This document shows positions 47,901 through 53,900 of a DNA stretch of 64,000 bases, in pieces. The first letter of the stretch is position 1; every line of letters starts with the position of its first letter. The position numbers and the translations under genes are program-made. The notes beneath the pieces are model-generated. The model made no database searches, was not told the origin of the DNA, and saw only the letters and a program-made list of their open reading frames with translations. The stretch lies in NCBI RefSeq assembly GCF_052324685.1, contig NW_027506895.1, positions 878,596 to 942,595 on the forward strand. The letters run 5' to 3'. This DNA is from Brachyhypopomus gauderio (taxonomy: Eukaryota > Chordata > Actinopteri > Gymnotiformes > Hypopomidae).

Positions 47901-50900
47901 GGGGAGTTGTCATGCCGCTCATGACACACACTTCTCTGTCAGTTGCATTACAGCGACGGAGACATCATTCTCGACAATAAACCAGGCGACTCCCTGCTCC
48001 TCGTGAGCCAGGGTCAGGTGAGAACACACACACTCATGCCCCATCCTCAGTACACGCGTCATATGTGCAGTGTGTGTCCATCACACCTTTCTGGAAGCAT
48101 CTGTAATTAAAGGAGTTTCACAGGGATTCACCAGTCTGGAGGAAGTAAAGCAGCTGATTCTTCTCTGCAGATACATGATGCATACGTTTACATGATTTAT
48201 TTGTTTGATTAGTGGTGTGGGGATAATTGAACTGAGATCTGCCAGAGAACTTGCATAACGTCAGCTGCCTGACTGTCGGGACGTAACGCCAGAGGAGAAC
48301 TTTTATCCTCGTGGACCAGCGATGTTTGTTTGTTGAATTTGAATGGTAAATGATGAGGCCAGATGAGAGGTTTGCCGTGTGACCCTAACTCTGTGTGGCT
48401 GGCCCTCCATCAGGTCAAGGTACTGGAGAAAATCTCCACCAGTGAGGACGAAACGTGCCTGTCAGTCCTGTGCAGAGGAGACTGCCTCAAAAACGGGTGC
48501 AGATGCGACTGCTGTGGAGGCAGATCACAAGGGTGCAGAAGAGTCTGCTTCGGAGACAGATCACAACAAGGGTGAGACCAGCAGGGGGCAGCACCAGCCA
48601 TTACACTGCTCCCCTTTGCTTTGTTAGAGTGAACAAATTTCCTTCTCACCCAGTACAGTGACCCCCCCCCCCCCCCAAAAGATCAGGACAGCATGCGAAA
48701 TGTGTAATGGCAGGGAGGTTTTGACATGTGTAGCAGTGATTTTAACTGTGGAAGATTCTGAGAATTGAAGAAAACCCACAGAGCAATAACCTCAACTACT
48801 ACGTTGGAATGCTGGATGAAACGCCTCCAACACACCGTAATTGAACAAACACGTCTCATTTGTGGCACTAGGCCATGTGGACACGCCCCCTATAGGCTCT
48901 GGTGAGGAGACGGGGAGTTTTTTGAATACTCTTCTGCAGAACTTTGATGTCGTCTCTGCAGGACATTGAACTCTATAGCTGTGTGTGTGTGTGTGTGTGT
49001 GTGGTGGTAGAACTCTCCATGTGATATCCTCCGAATCACTGGCAATCAACTGCACAGAAGGAGACAGTCTGTCTGCTCCTTAAAAATAAAGTGTCTGCTA
49101 GTGAAGGAACACCAACATCTCTACACCACAGTGTCTTACTATAGCCTGATGAACCTCACACCATCTCACACTACACCACCTCACACTATCTCCACACACC
49201 TCACTACACCCCCTCACACTTTAACCACACCACCTCACCTCACACCCCCTCACACCACCTCGCACCACACCACCTCGCACCACACCACCTCGCACCACAC
49301 CCCCTCGCACTAAACAACACCACCTCACACCACACCACCTCACACCATCTCGCACCCCCTCACATCGCATCACTTCACACTAAACCACACCACCTCAAAC
49401 TACCTCGCACCACACCCCCTCACAATACACCACCTCACACCACAACACAGCTTTGATTGGCAAACACAAAATGGACTGGAAATGTTCAAATACAAACATT
49501 CTTTGCTTAAATCAACATTCACCGATCAGGAGGAGCGTGAGGAACACATCCAGACGGTTGAGCTGCAACCTGCCTCCGAGAATCATTTCTGAAGCTTTGC
49601 CGGTTTTCACGGGCGCTCAGAATACAAATGCAGGTTGAGTGTGTGACCCGTTTTCTGTCTCCAGAGAGGCCGTGAGGTCACGGAATACTGTTGCTGTCAA
49701 CGATGTCATATGTCTGCTCGTAGAAAGAGAGTAAGTGCTTTCACCCAAACGATGGGGCTGAACCATTTTTATAGCATTGCTCTGACATAGCACTGTTCTG
49801 TAGTGTTGTCCTTTAATCTTTAATGGGAAAGTGCAGAAAGGGTCATTCTTACTCGTATGCTGTATACATTACTAATTGGGTATTTTCAGATCTGTCGAGA
49901 GATGTATAGGAGAAGAGGACGACACTAGGGAGAGAGACACCACTCTGCCCATGGACAAGTATGCACACAGCGCAAGGCTGCTGTTCTGGGTGTCCGTAAC
50001 ACCACCACCATTAGAACAGCCATTTCCCGAACGTTATCCTGAACATCAATCTGCAACGTGTCTGTCGCCACCACCAGGGAAGAGCCGGACGTGGCCGGGC
50101 TGGGCGACGTGGCCGGGCTGGGCGACGTGGCCGGGCTGGGCGACGTGGCCGGGCTGGGCGACGTGGCCGGGCTGGGCGACGTGGCCGGGCTGGGCGACGT
50201 GGCCGGGCTGGGCGACGTGGCCGGGCTGGGCGACGTGGCCGGGCTGGGCGACGTGGCCTTCCGTGACGTGCAGGTTGTGTGCGACCTGAACAAGGGACAT
50301 TTCGGCTGCACGAAGCTGGTGAGGTTGACGCGTGTTCCTTCAGGTTGACGTGTATGCTGCGTACGATCCCAAATGTGGTAATTAAATGGGAGAGAACTGA
50401 AGTGCTGTGGGATAAAGTGTGTTTCTCAGAGAAAACCCTCTCTCTTCTGTGAATTCCTGACTGCCATTTATTCACCTTTGACCTTTGGTGTGTTCCCTCT
50501 CAGGTGTATCTGAAAGAGGACGCCAGCCGCATGTTTGCGCTGAGGGTTGTCCAGAAGAGCGCGTTGGAGACCCCCGGTCCAAGACGACAAATCCTTGATG
50601 AAAAGCAAATAATGATTGATGCCAACTGCCCGTTCATAGTGAGGTGTGGAATCGTTACCCACCATGTCCAAACATTTCCCGCCCACAGCTTCTAAACCTG
50701 AAGCTCCATCATTACTGAGAGAGCCTTCGGAGAGCGTTGTAAGGGGTCAGAGAAGGTTATACCTCCTACATTCTGTGGCTCCTTGACCTGTCACTAATAA
50801 CCAAATGCAGCAGTGTGTAGTGTGTCCAAGATCTCTGTAGATACAAGACCCTGAGTAGAACAGCCCCGCGTTAGCCTTATATCACCCAGGATTTAAATAC

Positions 50901-53900
50901 CGCCCTCTGTGTATGTTTTTATATACCATTCTGTTTGGATTGTGGATATGTGCATTCGTTTGAAAACACATCTCTCCTCTCAGGTTATATCACACCTTTA
51001 GAGATGCAAAGTGCCTGTACATGTTGATGGAGGCGTGTTTAGGTGGAGATCTGTGGACCTTGCTGAGAGACAGGTAGCTGTGATCAAAACTCCTAAACTC
51101 TCACACATCTACATCTGCCACACGTTTTGGATCGATGGGATCCAGATGAGGGAGGGGCTTTGAAGGGGGAAGTTCACGTATGATCGGCCCCTCCTGTGTG
51201 AGTGACGGTCTGTCGTCGTTTCAGGGAAACGTTTGACGAGCACACGGCTCGCTTCTACACAGCCGGCGTGCTGGAGGCTCTGGCGTTCCTCCATGGCCGA
51301 GGTGTCGTTCACAGAGACCTCAAGCCAGAGAACGTTCTCCTGGACCACAAGGGACGCGTCAAGCTGGTGTGGAGCTGAGCTCTTCAGAACTGTTGCAAAT
51401 GATAAAATGTTCCCGACCAAATCTGCCATTTCTTTAAGGAAGCGATTTTACAGACATTAATGACCCCCAACCTCCCTCTCCCTCTCTCTCACACAGTCGG
51501 GCTTTGGCTGTGCTAAGAAGCTGGACACTCTCCACAGGGCCTGGTCATTCTGTGGCACGATTGGTCACCAGGCCCCAGAGGTCATCATGCTGAAAGGCCA
51601 CAGCGTGCCCGCTGACCTCTGGGCTTTAGGGGTGTTCATATACGAGCTGCTGAATGGCAGGTGAGATTAGCAAATCAGTAAATCTCTATTAGACTTCTAG
51701 CTAGAAGTGTGTTTCTTTAAAAGCACATTATAGAGCCATTTCAAAAGAGCTGCAATACAGTTCATGTCTGAGTTAAATCAGCCATAGATGAATAATAGAC
51801 CCAAGCAGGCTTTGAATAAGTGGAATAAGCTCATCTGTAATCTGTAATATACAGGTAATAAAAAGCCTGCGGTTTTCTTCTCCATGCCAGGTGACATGTA
51901 TAGAGACCCACGAATTCAGTCAGTTACTCTGAATCTGTTTAAATGTTTATCAGTCCAGTTGTGCGGATATTTATTTTGAGCAACTCGTATTACTCGTATC
52001 AGGCCACACACACACACACACACACAAACACGTAGTTCTGACTTTCATACACTGACTTTCACCCCAAACCCTCGGCAAGGCTGTAACGGACAGATTGAGC
52101 TGTCAAGCCAAGCTTCAGGGGCAGAGGTGAGTAATCTGCTCTGTTGAACGCCTTTCATACGGCAATATGAGCAGGCAGTCCTGTTTATTCCCTAAATAAT
52201 ACCGAGCTAGAATTGTTATAGCTTTCCATGAAAACGGAGCGAGGTGCGTTAAAATAGGACCTCTGGATCAAGAGGCACAAGGGTGTTTTTTGCAAGGGCA
52301 GAGCAGTTTTACATGTGGCAGTAACCCAGGGTCTGGACTGCATGTTGTGGGTGATATTACCAACTTTAAAAATGATTCCAGAGCTAGCACGCATATTTAA
52401 AAACAGGATACAGGGTCTGGTGGCATTTTAGCACCAAAAAGAGACAATCAGAATCGTTCTCATGCACTGTCATGAATTTGATTCCAGAGTTAATATATTT
52501 AAGATTAATTCTCCTAGAACGCGAGTTTTCTGTTAATTCCAGATAAACCGTCTAATGCTAAAGTTATTGAGAACTGACTGTCGGTGTGTTCTCATAATCA
52601 AGGAAAACGATGGTTTTCTATCCACTTAAACACACACCCTTTTACACATATGTAGAACTACAGGGCTCTTCATTAATATTCACGTTGGCCAGCGTCTCAC
52701 TCGGCTCTCTACACACCCAAAACAAGTTTATCTTCGGTTTCGTTTTTACATATGAAACGATCCTGACGTGACGTCCAGAAAAAAAATCAACTGAAGGGCA
52801 GATGCTTTTCACAAAACGCGGAGTGTGAATCGCGTGAGTGTGAACACGTCTACCGAGGGCCTGCAGTAAGTGGGGAGAAGGGCGGGAGGAGACGACCCTC
52901 GTACATCACAGCATTTGTTATTTATCTTCTGTACCGAAGCGAATGGCACAACGTGTTTAACAAAGGACACTGACCATGAATTGCAAACCTTTCATCAGTC
53001 CAACAGGTCAGAATGCAAACAGAGTGAGGTCAGGGTCACTGTGACACGTTAAAAAAAAAAGACAAACTGTGCATGCATAATAAAACATTTGTTAGATTTT
53101 GTAAACACACTTTTCCTGCACCCATGTTATATATTGTTCATGTCATAAATGTGCATCCCAAGTGTGTGTTGTTCAGGGGACATTTGCGTCTGTCAATGTC
53201 CCCCGGGTCCCCAGCCCCCCTTTCTCAGGCGCTGACCACCTAAAGACCTGTGCGGCAGTCCTGAAGGGAATCGACGCCGTAGAGTTCCCGATGGCTGTCA
53301 AAGGGGCCGCGCGTGACCTTATCAAGAGACTCTGCAGGTAGGGGATGGGCGTGGCAAGGGGCGGGGCTTCTGCTGGTGCAGACAGAATATCAGTCACGTC
53401 ATTAAGTCAGTAATTCTTCGTCACATCAGGAAACTGCCGTTACACTGACACCAAGTGGCCTGGATGTGTCAGATTCTGTATCCATTTTAAACATGGCTGT
53501 GTGTATGTGGGGGTCCCACAGGATGGAGCACAGATTCACGATGTACAACTAATCTGATTATTTAATCTCACTTGAGAAGCACAGGGGGGAAAAAAGTGAA
53601 AACGGAGAACAATCACTTTCATAAATCACTTTTGTAAAAATGACAGCATGCTCCTTGTGTATGTGTGTATGCATATTTATTGTAATCTGATACCTACCCC
53701 CTAAATCTATTTACTTTTTGGCCAAAAAGCTATTTAATTTTTTGAGAAAAAAAACGAATTGATTCATCTTTCATTCAATTTGTCTCTCCAGGGTACACAC
53801 ACACACGTCTCTTCTCTGAGAACAGATGTGCCCTGCTTTGGGAAGGCTTGTGTGTGTCTGACACAGCTGTCGTTTATCACTTCACTTTCAGGGAGAACCC

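Follow-up and report, generated by a model that had tools for sequence, protein, structure and literature searches.

Cyclic GMP-dependent protein kinases (PKG) are usually treated as enzymes switched by cGMP. PKG zippers are described as serving both homodimerisation and the isoform-specific recruitment of partners (PMC9417419), and acidic zipper residues are reported to bind IRAG1 (PMC10298018). Zebrafish carry, beside prkg1a and prkg1b, a third PRKG1-like gene, prkg1l (ZDB-GENE-140422-2), which is listed under PKG1 effector proteins in a passage that holds nothing on its catalysis (PMC12498267). Pseudokinases standing beside live paralogues are already well known, PSKH2 being one example (PMC9988210). 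Here we analyse a PKG-like gene found in a stretch of 64,000 nucleotides from Brachyhypopomus gauderio (contig NW_027506895.1, positions 878,596 to 942,595; this whole stretch is called the window, and positions are counted from its first letter). On balance, its sequence points to a PRKG1-lineage paralogue of teleosts that codes for a protein and has turned into a pseudokinase.

The gene occupies positions 38918-54367 of the forward strand, and its 19 exons join into 741 codons followed by a stop (codons were assigned to exons by their middle base). All 18 introns are of the GT-AG type, all phases fit, and neither an internal stop nor a frameshift was found; the start codon has an A at −3 and a G at +4. 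The gene model is further supported by a GC content at third codon positions above that of the introns (values below). An earlier note on this DNA, made from the letters alone, had given the range 50078..51660, which covers exons 11 to 15 only. Its statements that the kinase exons are in frame, that nearly all splice sites of its 19 exons match the consensus, and that the gene ends in a DKDF tail followed by poly(A) signals were confirmed, as were its readings of the glycine loop, the β3 Lys, the DFG motif and HRDLKPEN, given next with their positions.

The glycine-rich loop reads LNKGHFGCT (within residues 442-451, 50283-50312): its first glycine (Gly444) is replaced by Asn444 and Val451 of β2 by Thr (V451T), while glycines 446 and 449 are retained. 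In FALRVV (within residues 463-469, 50531-50551) the β3 lysine (Lys405) has become Arg467 (codon AGG at 50543), and in SGFG, which starts at 51497, the Asp of the DFG motif has become Gly579 (codon GGC at 51500). In PKG-Iβ a metal is coordinated by Asp517 (PMC9417419). Further changes affect the activation-loop Thr (now Ser594), Pro537 of the P+1 pocket (now Ile599) and Tyr582 (now Cys). The HRDLKPEN motif (51310-51333), the αC Glu486, the APE motif and the αF Asp617 are all retained. The active-site Lys, DFG Asp and glycine-loop features of the PKG family are thus absent (R467, G579, N444), and with Lys and DFG Asp gone, HRD present and the kinase domain still recognised by Pfam, the chain shows the sequence pattern by which pseudokinases are recognised, a kinase domain short of at least one of the VAIK Lys, HRD Asp and DFG Asp.

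The extent of the damage was measured on an alignment of four kinase sequences, namely the window protein, human PKG1, PKA and the PKG of chain 5ezr_A, which we take to come from Plasmodium, the species being uncertain. Eighty-four positions are invariant in the last three; the window protein keeps 66 and loses 18, namely Gly444, Val451, the β3 Lys, the DFG Asp, the activation-loop Thr, the P+1 Pro and twelve others. Among these 18 changes, 10 are conservative, a larger share than the 26.6% that random single steps would give (P=0.009). A previous count of 29 lost among 114 deeply conserved sites was dropped in favour of this one, because in the pairwise alignments behind it residues immediately ahead of the glycine loop were set in the wrong place.

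The rest of the chain is of PKG type. With phmmer, the top PDB match of the 741-aa protein was the PKG-Iβ chain 7lv3_A (5.4e-146), and the N-terminal exon had no PDB match up to E 0.001 other than chain 3nmd_A (1.1e-17), which is the zipper structure of PKG-Iβ (PMC9417419). Pfam recognised Pkinase (8.5e-58, residues 443-695) and cNMP_binding above cut-off; its coiled-coil model PKcGMP_CC remained below (26.5 vs 35 bits). Identity to human PKG1 amounts to 39/51 in the zipper, 98/273 in the regulatory part and 156/313 in the kinase part, and it is uneven from exon to exon (76% in exon 1, 80% in exon 13, 18% in exon 3). The PRKG1 architecture is present in one chain, with zipper, auto-inhibitory segment, two cyclic nucleotide-binding (CNB) domains and an AGC kinase. 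From these matches and identities we place the gene in the PRKG1/PKG-Iβ lineage, and our guess, by lineage, is that zebrafish prkg1l is its likely orthologue. A fish relative was not among the best 80 of at least 584 matched stretches in genome contigs, these 80 being all bacterial or archaeal with 31-48% identity, and none of six peptide patterns was matched in viral contigs.

The earlier note overlooked the good preservation of the zipper and the damage to both cGMP pockets. In the well-preserved zipper exon, the aligned part matches PDB 3nmd at 39 of 51 residues, and acidic residues occupy 13 of the 14 acidic positions. In the heptad register with the strongest hydrophobicity, 13 of 14 residues are the same. 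In the auto-inhibitory segment the basic residues R, K and R are kept at P-5, P-3 and P-2, and an ungapped reading suggests that Ala78, at position P0 of the pseudosubstrate, has become Ser76; in the computed alignment a gap falls at this point. In CNB-A, Arg192 of PKG-Iβ is replaced by Cys188 (codon TGC at 41280) and Glu183 is retained. In CNB-B, Arg297, presumably the base-binding Arg, has become Ser292, Glu307 has become Asp323, and Arg316 is retained. No Tyr occurs in residues 350-438, where the capping Tyr351 is expected. Key cGMP-binding residues of the family are accordingly missing from both domains (Arg192 to C188, Arg297 to S292, no Tyr). Both a base-binding Arg of CNB-B, given without its number, and the capping role of Tyr351 are described for PKG-Iβ (PMC9417419).

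Could a dead gene have kept such a frame? We estimated this with a neutral model for a single sequence, in which transitions are twice as likely, substitutions are drawn towards a GC of 0.46, codons are like the present ones, and indels occur at 0.06 per substitution, 80% of them frame-shifting; all rates except the GC are assumptions. A gene was called intact if it had no stop, frameshift or splice-dinucleotide hit. The probability of being intact was 0.08 at a neutral divergence of 0.01 (0.47 for stops alone) and 0.006 at 0.02 (0.22 for stops alone). Joint probabilities were maximised over neutral divergences up to about 0.12. For an intact gene that had lost 18 of the 84 invariants, the best value was 7.4e-9 (stops alone, 2.7e-4); it was 8.7e-7 (1.7e-4) for the loss of 5 of 13 function sites and 8.7e-5 (2.3e-3) for that of at least 3 of 10 catalytic kinase sites. 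A long-standing neutral pseudogene is rejected by this test of frame and splice decay. The low joint probabilities, together with the excess of conservative changes, make it quite probable that the frame was kept by selection during most of the residue change. This is not proof that selection was still acting when the fatal changes themselves arose.

The main rival explanation is a recent hit on a fast but live paralogue: a prkg1l-type kinase would have lost selection within the last 1-3% or so of neutral divergence, and a handful of fatal substitutions would have become fixed ahead of the first stop or frameshift. We hold this to be rather improbable. The chance of remaining intact at a divergence of 0.01, given above, is compatible with it, and kinase and cGMP pockets are damaged together. 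The high GC content at third codon positions of the gene (0.71 vs an intron GC of 0.46; 0.45 to 0.94 per exon, with 0.45 for exon 9 and 0.50 for exon 4) is no argument against a loss this young. What stands against it are the joint probabilities for the catalytic and function sites, sites picked post hoc, and the fact that Asn444 and Thr451 each lie, by codon reasoning, at least two steps from the invariant residue. Several other points weigh against a kept pseudokinase. Lys to Arg and Asp to Gly, the two key catalytic changes, are each one A-to-G step from the likely parent codon, which also suits a recent loss. Known motifs guided the choice of the 13 function sites and 10 catalytic sites, which was made after the sequence had been seen. 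The 10 conservative changes may be harmless, the change of Tyr559 to His, counted among the 18, only restores the usual HRD, and the losses at the 84 sites could have accumulated in a fast but live kinase. At the 113 sites common to human PKG1 and 5ezr_A, PKA keeps 84 and the window protein 85, therefore total divergence alone is not abnormal. The other two comparisons gave 84 for human PKG1 and 72 for the window protein (113 sites common to PKA and 5ezr_A), and 84 for 5ezr_A and 80 for the window protein (124 sites common to PKG1 and PKA). That almost every module is damaged would also suit an ongoing loss of function, and the zipper may persist only through strong earlier conservation. By these counts, losses are about as numerous as between kinase subfamilies; only their kind is unusual, and it is this kind that would mark a pseudokinase.

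A kinase that is still active, or still binds nucleotide, through an unusual use of Arg467 and GFG appears quite unlikely. The retained αC Glu486, HRDLKPEN, loop glycines 446 and 449, APE and αF Asp speak for it, and GFG has precedents. CASK has a GFG motif and is a Mg-independent kinase. EphA10 is tabulated with GFG as well (PMC7586955). However, Lys and Asp are both lost, and so are the β2 Val and the first Gly of the loop, the P+1 Pro537 and Tyr582 are replaced, and the PKG-Iβ residue Asp517 is a metal ligand (PMC9417419). More improbable still is an artefact of gene model or assembly, with an alternative transcript or a wrong base masking a normal kinase. Lys to Arg and Asp to Gly each take a single base, and the perfect 18-bp repeat of exon 11 can be an assembly feature; yet 18 of the 84 invariant residues differ, and for some of them more than one base must have changed. 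A tblastn search with human PKG1 gave a single place in the window for every kinase segment it detected, the Lys exon and the DFG exon among them, and so no second copy of either (exons 11, 17 and 19 were not picked up). Arg467 is deep within exon 12 and the codon of Gly579 comes second in exon 15, therefore a shifted splice site could remove these residues, not restore Lys or Asp. Reading through the exon 14 donor gives V-W-S-stop (by eye). Alternative splicing that restores Lys or DFG, which the earlier note had raised, is rejected on these grounds, the splice sites not having been scanned in full. The note's proposal of a full-length PKG pseudokinase is partly supported and stands as the best reading, favoured over an old pseudogene by the decay test.

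If the pseudokinase is made, it is probably a non-enzymatic partner or decoy, as the zipper is kept while catalytic residues and a complete cGMP pocket are gone. A tentative mechanism is that the chain cannot phosphorylate, senses cGMP poorly or not at all, and acts via its zipper. It would pair through this PKG-Iβ-type zipper with itself or with live PKG-Iβ, or alternatively take the basic sites of IRAG1-like anchors, and PKG-Iβ output would be lowered or relocated. Kinase-dead PKG-Iβ makes dead-active heterodimers in cells (PMC9417419), and pseudokinases can compete for protein contacts (PMC8141879). Against such a role, decoy pseudokinases are said to have remarkably few examples (PMC8141879), and auto-inhibition of PKG-Iβ is mainly in cis, a dead chain altering the activity of its live partner only modestly (PMC9417419). 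For this reason, competition for anchors seems likelier than direct inhibition. Loss of the CNB-A Arg (Arg192Gln/Arg177Gln) activates PKG, the pocket being closed and mimicking the cGMP-bound form (PMC9417419). An inverted PKG may be imagined from this, and we think it unlikely: a zipper-bearing dead kinase, whose CNB-A would be locked in a cGMP-bound-like state by the loss of Arg192 and whose pseudosubstrate Ala would have become Ser, would be held in a dimer with live PKG-Iβ and serve it as substrate or inhibitor, independently of cGMP.

Table. Exons and polyadenylation signals of the PKG-like gene (positions in the window)
Feature	Position	Strand	Content or source
Exon 1	38918..39104	+	Start codon; PKG-Iβ-type leucine zipper
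Exon 2	39525..39636	+	Auto-inhibitory segment R-V-K-R-Q-S-V, residues 71-77
Exon 3	40099..40265	+	First half of CNB-A; 10/55 aligned residues identical
Exon 4	41185..41298	+	CNB-A phosphate-binding cassette; Pfam cNMP_binding match
Exon 5	46871..46976	+	Gene model
Exon 6	47200..47263	+	Gene model
Exon 7	47943..48017	+	CNB-B
Exon 8	48414..48571	+	CNB-B with 21-residue insertion; Arg297 to Ser292, Glu307 to Asp323
Exon 9	49665..49730	+	CNB-B; Arg316 kept as Arg332, Thr317 to Ser333
Exon 10	49890..49958	+	End of CNB-B, without Tyr
Exon 11	50078..50318	+	Linker with 18-bp repeat; glycine-rich loop
Exon 12	50504..50643	+	β3 (Lys405 to Arg467) and αC (Glu486 kept)
Exon 13	50984..51073	+	24/30 identical to human PKG1, top of 19 exons
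Exon 14	51225..51366	+	Catalytic loop HRDLKPEN
Exon 15	51497..51660	+	GFG replacing DFG; activation segment, APE, αF Asp617
Exon 16	53215..53337	+	C-lobe
Exon 17	53892..53951	+	Gene model
Exon 18	54076..54142	+	Gene model
Exon 19	54287..54367	+	C-tail DTDWDKDF (54341-54364), then stop
Two AATAAA polyadenylation signals, downstream of stop	54622..54641 (54622 and 54636)	+	Sequence

Repeats are found both in exons and in an intron. In exon 11, the linker between CNB-B and kinase contains an 18-bp unit present in 9.5 copies with 100% matches (50088-50258), in frame, a feature that the earlier note had also overlooked; this array is a recent coding minisatellite, and its length may vary between individuals. 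A 36-bp repeat in 2 copies (48495-48566) underlies the insertion of exon 8. The long fourth intron holds a 37-bp unit in 19.1 copies (43466-44162), with 54-bp and 46-bp arrays nearby.

A beta-2-microglobulin gene adjoins the PKG-like gene on the reverse strand (34082-36446). It has a C1-set domain, a signal-peptide exon near 36200 (by eye), and 3gbl_A, which we take to be a grass carp chain, as best PDB match, in keeping with teleost DNA. On the forward strand, Tc1-like transposase pieces lie at 29334-30367 (a DDE_3 part was matched, the rest recognised by eye), and two overlapping open frames at 36914-37464 match Pfam ALKBH8_N (1.9e-8) and look by eye like a retroelement remnant. Just downstream of the PKG-like gene, an open frame of 627 aa (54862-56745, forward strand) has, by eye, the look of a hAT-type or ZBED-like transposase derivative. 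Pieces matching the Ras (Rab7-like by eye), ubiquitin and dynamin families are found elsewhere in the window.

If the pseudokinase reading is true, fishes have a natural non-catalytic relative of PKG, perhaps a subunit, and with it a genetic test of which PKG functions rest on zipper and anchoring alone. The earlier note knew of no described PKG pseudokinase. A phrase search in one open-access library agreed, no publication on a PKG-family pseudokinase being found; the gene itself is possibly not new, as zebrafish prkg1l is already named (PMC12498267).

Compared to known systems, the window protein shares with PKG-Iβ the order of zipper, auto-inhibitory segment, CNB-A, CNB-B, kinase and C-tail. 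It differs from PKG-Iβ in lacking the β3 Lys, the DFG Asp, the first loop Gly, the CNB-A Arg192, the CNB-B Arg297 and a Tyr near 351, and in having the 18-bp linker repeat and, by the ungapped reading, a Ser at P0 of the pseudosubstrate. PSKH2 is unlike it in belonging to the CAMK group, in having lost the catalytic Asp instead, and in having no CNB domains. PSKH2 and other vertebrate pseudokinases do offer the case of a dead copy beside a live paralogue, being kinase or pseudokinase depending on the species (PMC9988210). A further parallel is the engineered kinase-dead PKG-Iβ, which is dead at full length and dimerises with an active chain (PMC9417419), but this is a laboratory point mutant in an otherwise normal PKG-Iβ chain.

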